From NCBI GenBank assembly GCA_902787555.1, contig CADAGO010000017.1, positions 1 to 50,746 on the forward strand: 50,746 nucleotides of DNA, read 5' to 3'. Both the position numbers and the translations under genes were made by a program. Source of the stretch: an uncultured Bacteroidales bacterium. GTDB lineage: Bacteria > Bacteroidota > Bacteroidia > Bacteroidales > Bacteroidaceae. Positions within the stretch are counted from its first letter, which is position 1. Every line of letters begins with the position of its first letter. This document shows, in pieces, positions 14,603 to 18,853 of the stretch. The notes below the pieces were generated by a model, which did not search any database, had not been told where the DNA came from, and saw only the letters and a program-made list of their open reading frames with translations.

Positions 14603-16498
14603 TTAAAAACTGAACTCCTTCACCACCACATCGGGCTCTTTTATCTTTACCTTATAGGTCTTTCCTTTCTCAAACTGAGGGAGCGACAAGATGCTACTGC
14701 TGCTTTGCATCGTGAAAGGGATGACAAACGAATAAAGCACCTTACCCTTATCATCTACACATTGCAGCGTCTTGCCTACCGGACAAGGCAGTCCGTTGAG
14801 CGATACAGTCAGCTGGGTATCAGACGACTCTTTGGGCATCGGAGCCTCGCCCATCATCGAGCCACCCATTCCAAACACGGTTCCGCCTGTGAGGGTCATC
14901 TGCGTAAAGTCGCTGTCAAACGGTTCCTCAGGAGAACCTACCTGTGAGCAGGCAGTAATTTTCCCTCCGGTGATGATAAGAGATTCTCGACTGTTTGAAT
15001 TTGAATCGATAGCATCGTTGCCCACACTCCACACGAACACATCGCCACCGTGGAACTGAATCGGGCCGTTCGAACTGATACCGTCGTCCATCGCCTTCAC
15101 ATACACCGTTCCGCCATTCACAGTCACACCCTTCTTGCCTTCCATTCCCTCGGCACCATCGGAAGCTGTCTTCACCTTGACGTCCCCGCCATTAATCGTG
15201 ATGGTTCCCACCACTTTGATAGCCTTTGCACTACCATTATATTTACGCTTTGCGAACCCCATTCCTCGCTCCTCGCGCTCATCTCCAAAGAGAATCTGAC
15301 GAAGGGAGTCACTTATCTGGATACGGTCGCCTCGGTTTCCACCCCCGAAGCCGCCAAAGCCGCCAAATCCTCCAAAATCACCCATTTCACCGAAGTCGGG
15401 CATTCCACCCCCGAAGCCTGGCATTCCACCCCCGAAACCTCCTCCACCTCCGAAGTCAGGCATTCCGCCTCCCTGTCTTTCGCCACCTGGTCTTCCACCA
15501 CCAGCCCTTTCACCACCCGGTCTTCCGCCACCTGGTCTATCACCACCAGCCCTTTCACCATCTGGTCTTTCGCCACCAGGTCTTCCACCCCCAAAGTCTG
15601 GGAAGCCACCTCCAGGGAACCCAGGAAAACCTCCACCTCCGAAATCAGGCATTCCGCCACCAAAATCGGGCATGTCGCCACCGAAACCTCCGAAACCACC
15701 AAAGCCAAACTGACGTTCGCTGACATAACTACCCGATGTCTCGATATCGAGCGAACCACCGTTCATCACCATGTTGCCATCACATTTCACTCCCTTTCCT
15801 CCATCACCCGTCAACACAGCCTTCAGGACACCACCATTGATGGTCAAGGTAGAATCGCATTTCAATGCTTTCTTGTCCACGCTCGAGAGATTGATATCAA
15901 TAGTTCCTCCATCAATCGTAAGGTCGGTCCCGCTACTGATACCGTTACCCGTTGCTGAAGAAATGGCTATCTTGCCAGTAGACGGTTTGATTTCCACATA
16001 TTCCTTGGCTGCAATCGCATTCTTTGAATTCGCTGTAACGGTCAGCTGTCCGCCGCCACCTATCTCCAAATGACCTTTAGTATAGATACATGCCTTGTGA
16101 AGCGTATCCACACCATCCTCAAGCATGTTATTCGAACCATTCTTGAGCGTCAGCTTCATCCGTTTTCCACACTTCAGGTTGATTGCAGGACCTTCCGGAG
16201 TCTTCATCGTCAACCCGTCGAGCGTCACCGTAGCCTTGTAGCTGCCGTTCAGTTCGAAGCTGCCATTACCCGTCCGACCCTTCAGCACATACTCCACCTC
16301 CTCATCTGTCACCTGACTGTCCACTACCACCTTCGCACCCGTATGCGTCACATTAATCTTTTTGCTGTTCTTCGGCTGATCCACTTTCACAGTACCCTCA
16401 TTATAAGTGATTGTTATCTTCACACCATCAGCAGCCCATCCTGCTATGTGGCCAAAAGCCATCAGGCACATCAGCCACATAAAATGTCTCAATTTCAT
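14603..16498 (-). CDS. beta-helix carbohydrate-binding-domain protein with Gly-rich insert
   Basis: 631 residues, signal peptide ending near residue 22 (G-W-A-A-D). The flanking parts carry repeated strands such as L-T-I-D-G-G-T-I-D-I, L-T-I-N-G-G-V-L, V-T-V-N-G-G-T-V-Y-V and A-I-D-S-N-S, typical of the Cthe_2159/DUF4353 family of right-handed beta-helix proteins that bind polysaccharide and calcium. Between about residues 262 and 388 there is a low-complexity insert of G-G-F, M-P-D-F-G-G-G, R-P-G-G and G-E-R-A-G-G units. Probably surface-associated or secreted. The insert could be a flexible or phase-like linker; its DNA is repetitive and may vary in length between strains. Confidence 0.75.
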   Translation of the reverse strand: MKLRHFMWLMCLMAFGHIAGWAADGVKITITYNEGTVKVDQPKNSKKINVTHTGAKVVVDSQVTDEEVEYVLKGRTGNGSFELNGSYKATVTLDGLTMKTPEGPAINLKCGKRMKLTLKNGSNNMLEDGVDTLHKACIYTKGHLEIGGGGQLTVTANSKNAIAAKEYVEIKPSTGKIAISSATGNGISSGTDLTIDGGTIDINLSSVDKKALKCDSTLTINGGVLKAVLTGDGGKGVKCDGNMVMNGGSLDIETSGSYVSERQFGFGGFGGFGGDMPDFGGGMPDFGGGGFPGFPGGGFPDFGGGRPGGERPDGERAGGDRPGGGRPGGERAGGGRPGGERQGGGMPDFGGGGGFGGGMPGFGGGMPDFGEMGDFGGFGGFGGFGGGNRGDRIQISDSLRQILFGDEREERGMGFAKRKYNGSAKAIKVVGTITINGGDVKVKTASDGAEGMEGKKGVTVNGGTVYVKAMDDGISSNGPIQFHGGDVFVWSVGNDAIDSNSNSRESLIITGGKITACSQVGSPEEPFDSDFTQMTLTGGTVFGMGGSMMGEAPMPKESSDTQLTVSLNGLPCPVGKTLQCVDDKGKVLYSFVIPFTMQSSSSILSLPQFEKGKTYKVKIKEPDVVVKEFSF

Positions 16499-16706
16499 TT
16501 GTTTTATGAATTATGTATAAAACTTAATATTCAATTAAAAAGCTATCAACTACCAACTATGATACATTTCTCACTCGAAGGTTTAAGCCAATCGGTCATT
16601 ACAACATTTATTAACCAATTCGGTCAATTGGGTCTTTGGCAGATTTGGGATTATACGCAGGAGCAATCGTATAGTATTACTTCTAGCACATTCCACCACA
16701 TACACC

Positions 16707-16750
16707 AAGCGACGCCACTCACTATCGAGAGGCGCCGCTTGTTTGTTTTT
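16707..16750 (+). terminator. intrinsic terminator with no obvious upstream gene
   Basis: AAGCGACGCC and GGCGCCGCTT form a 10-bp stem with one mismatch and a 14-base loop, followed by GTTTGTTTTT on the plus strand. The only plus-strand candidate upstream is a short frame from 16558 that runs straight through the hairpin. No recognised gene lies between 16499 and here, so it may end a small RNA (a CCAATT...AATTGG hairpin occurs at about 16614-16631). Confidence 0.5.
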
Positions 16751-16826
16751 GGGGAGGGGAATAGTTTTTTTTCTATTATTCTGCAACTTTATTAACTTTT
16801 TATTATGTCGTTTCGGGGAAAAGTCG

Positions 16827-16834
16827 TATCTTTG
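16827..16834 (+). promoter_or_regulatory. -7 box of the structured RNA or leader
   Basis: TATCTTTG, predicting a transcript start near 16841, just at the base of a GTTC-TTCG-GAAC hairpin. No convincing -33 box. Confidence 0.55.
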
Positions 16835-16840
16835 CGCCGT

Positions 16841-17008
16841 GTTCTTCGGAACATGACATATTTGCTCAATGGCTGCACAATCACCACCGCATAGTCGACG
16901 AGCTAACAAATGTAATTGGAGCTGCCCCTATTCGGGCGCAGACTTCCCGTATACATTTGTGGTTTGTGGTGAACCGTGCAGCATATGGCGAATGTCTGCG
17001 CTTTTTAA
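16841..17008 (+). ncRNA. rod-shaped structured RNA (6S-like sRNA or attenuator leader)
   Basis: After a UUCG-capped hairpin (16841-16852), nested complementary segments form one long rod: GACA/TGTC plus TTTGC/GCGAA (16855-16865 with 16988-16996), GCTGCAC/GTGCAGC (16872-16878 with 16976-16982), TCACCAC/GTGGTGA (16881-16887 with 16966-16972), ACAAATGTA/TACATTTGT (16906-16914 with 16952-16960) and GCCC/GGGC (16924-16937). An 18-base versus 5-base internal bubble separates the lower from the upper stems. A competing perfect pairing GCGCAGAC (16936-16943) with GTCTGCGC (16994-17001), followed by TTTTT, resembles a terminator. It ends about 55 bp before the next lipoprotein start. It may be a separate RNA or a 5' leader; no known Rfam motif was recognised with certainty. 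Confidence 0.55.
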
Positions 17009-17062
17009 ATTGACAAGATAGAGCCGATGGGTAATGGCATATAAGATCCCAAAGATGTGTTT

Positions 17063-18352
17063 ATGAAACAGAAAATGTTTTTCTTAATGATGGTTGCGAC
17101 GGTGCTGACGGTGCTGTCATGCCGCGACGATGATGATAACTCGAGCGACGATATTCCTGTCGGTTTTCAGGACTTAACATCGGACTATATTGACCTTTCA
17201 CGCATATCTGCCGCCTTAGTACCCGACGCAACATTGACGCTTACCGATGGCGTGACACTGACAGGGGCACTCTCTCCGAAAGAAAAGATAAAGATTCAGG
17301 TGGCTGACGGGGCGACGGTGACTTTGAGCGGTGTAACGATTGCTGATAAGAGGGATGAATATAGTCCATGGGCAGGCATCACATGCCTCGGCAATGCTCA
17401 CTTCATCCTTGCCAATGGCACAACGACCACCATAAAGGCTTTCAATATTAATTATCCCGCTATACTCGCTGCTCATAATGCCTCTGGCAGAGGCAATGAA
17501 TATACGCTGACCATCAGCGGCGAAGGTACACTCATTGCCGATAATTCAGATTGTGGCGGCGCGGCTATCGGTGGTGGATGGGGAATCCCCTGCGGCAATA
17601 TTAGTATCAAGGGTGGCAAAATCACCGCCCTCGGCGGCAGCATGGCTGCAGCTATTGGCGGAGGATGGTTAAGTACTTGCGGTACCATAGCCATCAGTGG
17701 AGGTGACATTACAGCCAAAGGAGCAGATTTTGGAGCAGGTATCGGCAGTGGCTGTTCAGAGTATGGAAACAGCTCTTGTGGTAACATCACTATTAGCGGC
17801 GGTATTGTCAATGCAACAGGAGGCAATGGCTCAGCAGGTATCGGCAGTAGCGGTAAAGGATATGAAGCGACTAACACCTGTGGTGACATCATCATCAGCG
17901 GTGGCAAAGTGATGGCTAATGGCGGTGATGGTGGAGCAGGCATCGGCAGTGGACATTGGAGTAGCTGCGGTGCTATTACCATCACGGGTGGAAACATGAC
18001 TGCAACAGGAGGTAAAAAAGCTGCAGGTATCGGTTGTGGCGAAGGCAATCCTGATAAACTCAAGAGCTCATGTGGTGACATACGCATCGAGAACGGCAAA
18101 GGATTCGAGCATGTCATCGCCTATAAAGGCATCGGCGCCAGCCGCCCCATCGGTATGAGCGGAGGTGAAAACAACAACGAAATTGGTAACATTAGGTTCG
18201 GAGATATTCATATCAACAAAGATCGCTATAATTATAACATCGAGGAAGACGGCTATTGCGGCAGTTTCCACGTGACTAAGACGACAACGAAACTCGGCAA
18301 TGCAGATGAGAGTCAATATATTGACAATACATGGACACTGTCTGTTGAATAA
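17063..18352 (+). CDS. lipoprotein with tandem C-G-x-I-x-I-x-G-G repeats
   Basis: 429 residues from the ATG at 17063 (an in-frame GTG lies 6 bp earlier). Signal peptidase II lipobox L-S-C after MKQKMFFLMMVATVLTVL, followed by an acidic Asp run, a common Bacteroidota lipoprotein export pattern. From about residue 170 to 360 come six or so repeats of roughly 30 residues with the pattern G-A-G-I-G-x-G, a short loop, C-G-x-I-x-I-x-G-G-x-x-x-A-x-G-G. The repeated Cys-Gly and Gly-Gly turns suggest a right-handed beta-helix with stacked cysteines. Function unknown; surface adhesion or glycan binding is possible. It lies just downstream of the structured RNA, which may be its leader. Confidence 0.75.
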   Translation: MKQKMFFLMMVATVLTVLSCRDDDDNSSDDIPVGFQDLTSDYIDLSRISAALVPDATLTLTDGVTLTGALSPKEKIKIQVADGATVTLSGVTIADKRDEYSPWAGITCLGNAHFILANGTTTTIKAFNINYPAILAAHNASGRGNEYTLTISGEGTLIADNSDCGGAAIGGGWGIPCGNISIKGGKITALGGSMAAAIGGGWLSTCGTIAISGGDITAKGADFGAGIGSGCSEYGNSSCGNITISGGIVNATGGNGSAGIGSSGKGYEATNTCGDIIISGGKVMANGGDGGAGIGSGHWSSCGAITITGGNMTATGGKKAAGIGCGEGNPDKLKSSCGDIRIENGKGFEHVIAYKGIGASRPIGMSGGENNNEIGNIRFGDIHINKDRYNYNIEEDGYCGSFHVTKTTTKLGNADESQYIDNTWTLSVE

Positions 18353-18487
18353 TATCTTAAAGACCAACTGTTTGAGACATAACCTACTGTGGCGAGAGAA
18401 TTATATAGCTCCCGCCACTTTTTTGTGTATTTTCGGGAGATGATGAAAAAAGTCGTGAAAATATTTGGAAAACGAAAAGAAATGTTG

Positions 18488-18495
18488 TACCTTTG
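18488..18495 (+). promoter_or_regulatory. orphan -7 box
   Basis: TACCTTTG followed by CATTTGG. No plus-strand gene starts within the next 400 bp, so its transcript is unknown. Confidence 0.35.
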
Positions 18496-18500
18496 CATTT

Positions 18501-18853
18501 GGAAATGCGAAAGTAGGCGGCGCCTCAGCATAAGAACACGTTCTTCTTCATCGGTAGTCTCACTATGTTTTTTCACAAGCTGATCACGCTGACGAAGCAA
18601 TTTCTTGTATTCAAGCATTTCTTCCATAACTACCGCTTGACCGTGGTGCGTAGGGCTATATCAGTAACGAAAAATGTGCAGGCCATTTCTACGCACTTCC
18701 TGCTCACCACAAGCCACTCCAATCGTCGAAACGCCTACGCACTATGCGCCGACGCTCTTTCTTGAGTTTGGCTCTCTTGTCCGAGGTGGTGAATGGAAGT
18801 GTAGAGTCTACTATGTCTTGCACTCTTTGCAGAATGCTGGGGCAAAATTTCAA
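18501..18853 (-). pseudogene. coding-like minus-strand fragments, unrecognised
   Basis: Three short frames follow one another on the minus strand. 18853-18704 is 49 residues, TTG start, basic, containing T-S-D-K-R-A-K-L-K-K-E-R-R-R-I-V. 18686-18630 is 18 residues, ATG start. The frame from the ATG at 18627 begins M-E-E-M-L-E-Y-K-K-L-L-R-Q-R-D-Q and looks helical for about 40 residues before running into non-coding-looking sequence. They may be remnants of one decayed gene or tiny ORFs of a small operon; no family is recognised. The rest of 18353-18959 shows no other gene. Confidence 0.3.

Follow-up and report, generated by a model that had tools for sequence, protein, structure and literature searches.

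An RNA element of about 170 nt, located in the window (the whole stretch of 50,746 nt analysed here, contig CADAGO010000017.1 of an uncultured Bacteroidales bacterium), looks like an RNA maintained by structural selection in front of genes that mostly encode exported proteins, and its conserved rival foldings look switch-like. The element is probably a cis-acting transcription attenuator with riboswitch-like anatomy, forming the 5' leader of the downstream gene, which in most cases encodes an exported protein. The sequence features expected of an attenuator are found: a promoter upstream and a same-strand ORF downstream, mutually exclusive conserved pairings, and a U-tract. The element is a dispersed RNA family of Bacteroidales, often present in multiple copies. 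The positions of all features in the window are given in Table 1.

Table 1. Features of the element, of its surroundings and of the second copy in the window.
Feature	Positions	Strand	Basis
Bacteroidetes -7 box TATCTTTG	16827..16834	+	sequence; conserved TAnnTTTG in members
Whole element, copy 1	16839..17008	+	R2 match; fold z for 16841-17008
hp1, 5' hairpin GTGTTC-TTCG-GAACAT	16839..16854	+	96.9% paired vs 73.0% shuffled, 68 members
Helix H, 5' strand GCUC (partner GAGC 16900-16903)	16864..16867	+	covariation
Helix B, 5' strand (partner 16976-16982)	16872..16878	+	7/7 pairs with both-side changes
Helix C, 5' strand UCACCAC (partner 16966-16972)	16881..16887	+	both-side changes in 6/7 pairs; one invariant
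Helix H, 3' strand GAGC	16900..16903	+	covariation
Helix D, 5' strand (partner 16952-16960)	16906..16914	+	complementary-run test
E5, 5' arm of apical hairpin, antiterminator-like, pairs with X	16922..16928	+	helix E covariation
X GCGCAGAC, pairs with E5 or Y	16936..16943	+	covariation, complementarity counts
CCGUA, lengthens X:Y via UAUGG 16984-16988	16947..16951	+	co-variation of extension
Helix D, 3' strand	16952..16960	+	complementary-run test
K2, 5' strand GGU (pairs with ACC 16973-16975; 2-nt UU loop)	16961..16963	+	third-pair test
Helix C, 3' strand GUGGUGA, inside K2 loop	16966..16972	+	covariation
K2, 3' strand ACC	16973..16975	+	third-pair test
Helix B, 3' strand GUGCAGC	16976..16982	+	100% paired with 5' strand
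Y arm UAUGG ... GUCUGCGC, 3' half of terminator-like stem	16984..17001	+	complementarity, covariation
U-run TTTTT	17002..17006	+	T count after Y
Leader stretch GAGCCGATGGGTAATGGCATATAAGATCCCA between element and start codon	17021..17051	+	pattern search
Downstream gene, 429-aa lipoprotein-like, beta-helix repeats (PF18889)	17063..18352	+	Pfam
104-aa ORF following copy 2; may be a decayed gene	18313..18627	-	ORF list
Second, divergent copy	18669..18837	-	R2 52.6 bits, E 7e-10; fold z -3.46

Members of the family were collected with two covariance models. R1 derives from four full-length copies (L019, L005, L020 and L004), one of them from the genome hosting the window, and the broader R2 from 49 aligned members; the window copy is outside the training sets of both. 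Both are built on covarying stems, which biases the alignments toward B, C, E and hp1; H, K2 and X:Y are not part of either model. When 61 genomes were searched at the DNA level, similar pieces turned up in 14, own genome included and hit at three places, several of the matches being short and unrelated on inspection. Wider draws of genomes were scanned under stricter filters, at which weak matches are lost. Within the same family, R1 (E up to 0.01) found the element in 105 of the 301 genomes sampled, own included; these host one to seven copies each and are spread over 14 of 30 genera. R2 found it in 27 of 393 genomes drawn from the order, and among 395 drawn from the phylum, a few of which belong to the order, the own genome was the sole R2 match. 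Five copies are found in the own genome. A pattern scan of named genomes returned 110 stretches, and the 80 listed loci, two of which are clipped by a contig end, are all R1-positive. Phocaeicola vulgatus ATCC 8482, Parabacteroides distasonis, Paraprevotella clara, Barnesiella, Muribaculaceae and Alistipes are among the hosts of these loci; two further ones lie on contigs shorter than 4 kb in bins labelled Clostridia or Lachnospiraceae, and are probably mis-binned. Altogether 150 model matches were reduced to 140 distinct sequences, identical element sequences being counted once; these 140 members overlap in origin, several named loci being the same records as other loci. By eye, L016 (G003:C137) and L006 (G010:C41) are broken copies, in which unrelated sequence takes over after the 5' part of the element. 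As they hold only the 5' part, element copies seem to decay or to be rearranged.

Copy 1 is matched by R2 with 115.3 bits (E 3e-23). The tract 16841-17008 folds into a single long rod of -62 kcal/mol (z -4.31), and none of 200 dinucleotide shuffles is equally stable. The single rod proposed in the original prediction is borne out by this value and by compensatory changes throughout its length. The minus strand of copy 1 is equally foldable (-61.1 kcal/mol, z -5.03), and folding alone is therefore uninformative on the strand. When helices hp1, B, C and E are read on the plus strand, 319 G-U pairs are counted versus 25 A-C. Because of this excess, of the promoter and of the U-run, the plus strand is taken as the functional RNA.

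Stems vary between copies yet pair, and loops are conserved. Among 49 distinct sequences, pairing holds in 97.0% of the cells of helices B, C, E and H, versus 77.1% when partners are shuffled and 30-47% when they are slid by 1-3 columns. The original prediction was to be checked by looking for compensatory changes in homologues, and these abound: both sides are changed in 287 cells of the four helices, versus 75.0 in shuffles. Further pair types are unexceptional, as 69 of 500 shuffles reach the observed number. Helices B and C are 100% paired although most of their letters vary, and helix E (E5:X) is paired in 96.2% of cells versus 78.6% in shuffles. For helix D the mean longest complementary run is 9.1 within sequences and 5.6 across them (132 members). 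Two candidate helices were discarded: helix F (CUC..GAG beside C) lacks covariation (98.0% paired versus 97.7% shuffled), and K1, drawn around the 5' strand of C, scores less (z 4.2) than its slid version (z 8.8).

Two short helices cross those of the rod. K2 is a three-pair stem (GGN...NCC) formed around the 3' strand of helix C. Of the 137 members whose helix C is complete, 135 were counted: the third pair of K2 is Watson-Crick in all but one of them (134; shuffled mean 69.7, maximum 89), being C-G in 82, U-A in 51 and A-U in one. The two members lacking the K2 GG are L015, in which AGC/GCU still pair, and L188 (AGU/ACC). Since helix C is also conserved, K2 and C are predicted to make up a classical pseudoknot, in which one or two U's would span the seven pairs of C, and zero letters would separate C from the 3' strand of K2. 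Helix H has the consensus UUGCUC:GAGCAA, and pairs in the window copy only in the 4-bp core. Two pairs out from CUC:GAG, 83 members have U-A and 29 have A-U; 117 of 127 usable members (out of 132) are paired at this position, versus 74.4 in shuffles, with a maximum of 91. The outermost, fourth pair is not above shuffles. Since it crosses both B and C, H would form a further pseudoknot or belong to an alternative state.

An 8-bp pairing incompatible with parts of the rod had also been proposed, and it is present. X (GCGCAGAC) is complementary over 8 bp to GTCTGCGC (16994-17001), which is followed by five T. Because X cannot pair with E5 and Y together, X:Y excludes the apical hairpin, that is, the top of the rod. 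All seven pairs (7/7) of X:Y are possible in 123 of the 127 members, out of 140, on which they were counted, versus 108.3 with Y dealt out among members. Y is changed in ten members; in nine of them the own X is a better partner for it than for the consensus Y, and in the tenth (L107) a poorer one. The extension of the stem, CCAUA:UAUGG, co-varies. Among 123 classified cases UAUGG occurs with C (CCAU) in 70 and UAUGA with U (UCAU) in 25; the others are G-U (3), without motif (9) or mismatched (16). In the 49-sequence alignment X:Y is 96.9% paired versus 94.8% shuffled, a value as high being found in 0 of 500 shuffles, and cells with both sides changed are 11 versus 2.1. Pair types are no higher than in shuffled sets, 275 of 500 of which reach the observed number. 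The covariation signal of X:Y is real but modest, as Y is nearly invariant; covariation thus backs the antiterminator pairing E5:X strongly, and the terminator pairing X:Y modestly.

The eight bases after Y include on average 6.6 T over the 140 members. For a terminator, X:Y encloses a long loop. In a nested energy model, outside which pseudoknots fall, the X:Y state lies on average 11.2 kcal/mol above the best fold (range 0 to 23.9) in 125 members, all with 7/7 X:Y pairs, and 18.5 kcal/mol above it in the window copy. As nested energies favour the rod, X:Y would need kinetics or a partner to form. A local terminator hairpin, T (GUA..UGC), was considered and rejected: it lacks covariation, and its first pair is absent in 24 of 68 members. 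Because T does not covary, X:Y is taken as the terminator stem. A core with multiple pseudoknots and conserved loop letters may also call to mind a self-cleaving ribozyme hosted in the leader, the pseudoknots being its active core. The conserved U-run and the alternative pairing suggest transcription control instead, no Rfam ribozyme matches the element, and this reading is very unlikely.

The -7 box sits four bases before the first hairpin (16839), and a weak -33-like TATG is found at 16804-16807, 19 bases upstream of it. An exact TAnnTTTG occurs within 25 nt upstream in 116 of the 137 members with enough upstream sequence, versus 3 of 137 in a control stretch; 47 of these 116 also have TTTG another 19-20 nt upstream. 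As anticipated in the original prediction, the box would place the transcript start at the first hairpin, and its position is kept across members.

In 134 of 140 members a same-strand ORF, 80 aa or longer unless it runs off the locus end, starts no more than 350 nt downstream, at a median distance of 66.5 nt. Distances are of 40-130 nt in 102 of the 134, and 120 are within 120 nt; in 19 the first qualifying ATG is found within 40 nt, and some starts may be misassigned. Six of the 140 members have no nearby ORF by these criteria, and for four of the six there are possible other causes. Exported-looking proteins, as called by one simple heuristic rather than by SignalP, are 114 of the 134 downstream products, versus 133 of 360 other genes of the 80 named loci (odds ratio 9.7). 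When the first 450 residues of 132 downstream proteins were compared with Pfam, 60 families were found, with no common pathway. The commonest are LRR_5 (BspA type, 18), LRR_8 (13), Big_2 (10) and Lipocalin_4 (4); single nucleic-acid or defence-type proteins are also in the set. The original prediction also saw in the switchable pairing a possible attenuator or riboswitch that controls the lipoprotein downstream, a role to which promoter, U-run, exclusive conserved pairings and gene position all point.

The same promoter and U-run, together with the small-RNA size, are features that a stand-alone or leader-derived RNA acting in trans would also have, the downstream gene being a mere neighbour or transcribed by leakage. 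The six members without a nearby ORF fit such an RNA as well, and so do the several paralogues per genome, which are reminiscent of the FopS sRNAs of B. thetaiotaomicron (PMC11697453). The spacing to same-strand ORFs is in contrast clustered, exported proteins are strongly enriched, and the 19 members with an ATG within 40 nt leave little room for a second promoter; action in trans is rather unlikely. As described in the same source, FopS sRNAs are 65-70 nt long, intergenic, antisense or 3'-derived. Like FopS and GibS sRNAs, the element is a paralogous Bacteroidaceae RNA family with the same kind of promoter; unlike them, it is about 170 nt long and is a leader. On the grounds of length (65-70 nt versus 170 nt) and genomic position, identity with FopS/GibS was rejected.

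A leader-peptide attenuator was rejected too, as no family-wide frame exists: the median longest ATG frame is 22 aa, versus 20 in letter-shuffled sequences, and ATG frames of at least 35 aa are found in 28 of 140 members, versus 20 in shuffles. In the window, a 50-aa ATG frame runs across the element (16869-17021, plus strand); comparable frames occur in few members and are absent in most.

The pattern of the first 24 bases of the leader stretch GAGCCGATGGGTAATGGCATATAAGATCCCA is found twice in the own genome, after copy 1 and after the copy on contig C39. Similar stretches follow the element in L015, L110 and L170, and in L003 one precedes a gene without a recognisable rod. In L104, L126, L092 and others a second hairpin (such as AAGUUAGUGC...GUAUUAACUU) is located between U-run and ATG. 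The pre-start Z hairpin is found only in part of the members, the mean run being 8.2 within and 6.3 across sequences (n=102); part of the 5' arm of the pre-start hairpin resembles the complement of Y.

The second copy in the window faces copy 1, and points at the gene of the latter. The 5' strand of its helix H is degraded. The 104-aa ORF that follows it has no Pfam or NCBIfam family above its cut-off. On the other side of copy 1, divergent from the element's gene, the minus strand encodes (14603-16498) a protein of 631 aa, whose N-terminus is signal-like and which carries a long Gly-rich repeat tract; no NCBIfam match was found for it at E up to 0.1.

Being dispersed, present in several copies and not found in many relatives, the element could be viewed as a mobile palindromic DNA repeat of the MITE or REP type, landing near genes by chance. 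Its stems vary yet pair while loops are conserved, and the G-U over A-C excess is that of an RNA read on one strand. The promoter and the same-strand ORF accompany the element in the large majority of members, as counted above, and blastn searches of plasmid and phage collections returned no match for the window copy. This explanation is highly improbable, and was rejected on the strand-specific covariation. A pattern for one element subtype has a match in one viral contig. The pattern of the conserved 3' part was seen in a single viral contig, the 17-kb L222 (IMGVR_UViG_2936853558_000011).

The Rfam search by which the original prediction was to be checked was carried out, and matched the element to no family. 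None of the Rfam 15 families reaches its gathering score in the window; with the threshold relaxed to E 10, the interval 16700-17200 has only three chance-level matches, and ten further members with their surroundings, searched at E up to 1, only two unrelated weak ones. The element was not found described in the open-access literature searched, supplements aside. It is, as far as can be judged from sequence, an attenuator- or riboswitch-like leader with a fold of its own, absent from Rfam 15.

The size and shape of the rod had suggested 6S RNA, a reading which was not supported. 6S RNA is usually a one-copy free RNA, which binds RNA polymerase and templates product RNA. The element resembles the 6S families (RF00013, RF01685) in having a rod of similar length, and differs from them in being a multi-copy leader; of its five copies in the own genome, those that were examined precede different genes. 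The 6S-type Rfam models do not match it. RF00013 has no match in the own genome, and RF01685 has none in 21 genomes nor in controls, so that the latter search is uninformative. Bacteroidales-1 RNA (RF01693), which we take to be the 6S RNA of Bacteroidales, is comparable to the element for length (about 180 nt) and host order, but has its one match in the own genome at a separate locus (G000:C32:3969-4149), to which neither R1 nor R2 matches. B. thetaiotaomicron, according to PMC7366714, already has an experimentally seen 6S RNA. There is next to no chance that the element is a free RNA of the 6S kind.

Other known leaders are closer in logic. Trp-type attenuators fold into alternative 2:3 and 3:4 hairpins. 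Similarly, X pairs either upstream (E5) or downstream (Y), with U's after Y; unlike trp-type attenuators, the element has no shared leader peptide, features a pseudoknotted core, and has a much longer terminator loop. GEMM (c-di-GMP) riboswitches are structured leaders before genes that include adhesins (PMC3971182). A structured leader in such a position is the common trait; the element differs in anatomy, has no Rfam match, and, two contigs in doubtful bins aside, comes from Bacteroidales samples only.

In the attenuator reading, which we favour, the promoter would set the start of the transcript at hp1, and B, C, D and E would form the rod. As long as core and rod keep X in the apical hairpin, Y would stay free and polymerase would continue into the gene. 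If X:Y forms before polymerase leaves the U-run, transcription would stop, and a leader RNA of about 170 nt would be released. Some signal would act on the core and shift the balance of X, in either direction. Candidate signals are a small molecule binding to the conserved core, an RNA-binding or NusG-type protein, and the state of transcription or translation. The conserved core with its variable stems is reminiscent of an aptamer, and E5, X, Y and the U-run together look like an expression platform. Because the gene list is varied, a metabolic feedback riboswitch is disfavoured, and a general signal or a protein is favoured. It is tentatively suggested that the element may be a new riboswitch class, in which the pseudoknotted core (H, B, C/K2) would bind a small signal, possibly a second messenger of the nucleotide type, and via E5:X and X:Y set which surface proteins are transcribed in gut Bacteroidales. 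Equally tentative, and a special case within the attenuator reading, is a leader bound by a protein, which would choose between termination and read-through; candidates are NusG paralogues (UpxY/LoaP type) and other RNA-binding proteins. The many kinds of exported genes would suit a general regulator better than one metabolite, and LoaP-type antitermination is reportedly a precedent for protein-decided read-through.

BspA-like leucine-rich-repeat proteins and other exported proteins are numerous in gut Bacteroidales, and to our knowledge it is largely unknown how individual ones are switched on. The element adds a large, strongly supported pseudoknotted RNA family, which occurs in cultured strains such as Phocaeicola vulgatus ATCC 8482, where a copy lies at L120:5920-5747, and is directly testable there. 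Should the attenuator reading be true, the shared leader would represent a common control point, and its occurrences would provide a list of exported-protein genes that may be co-regulated.
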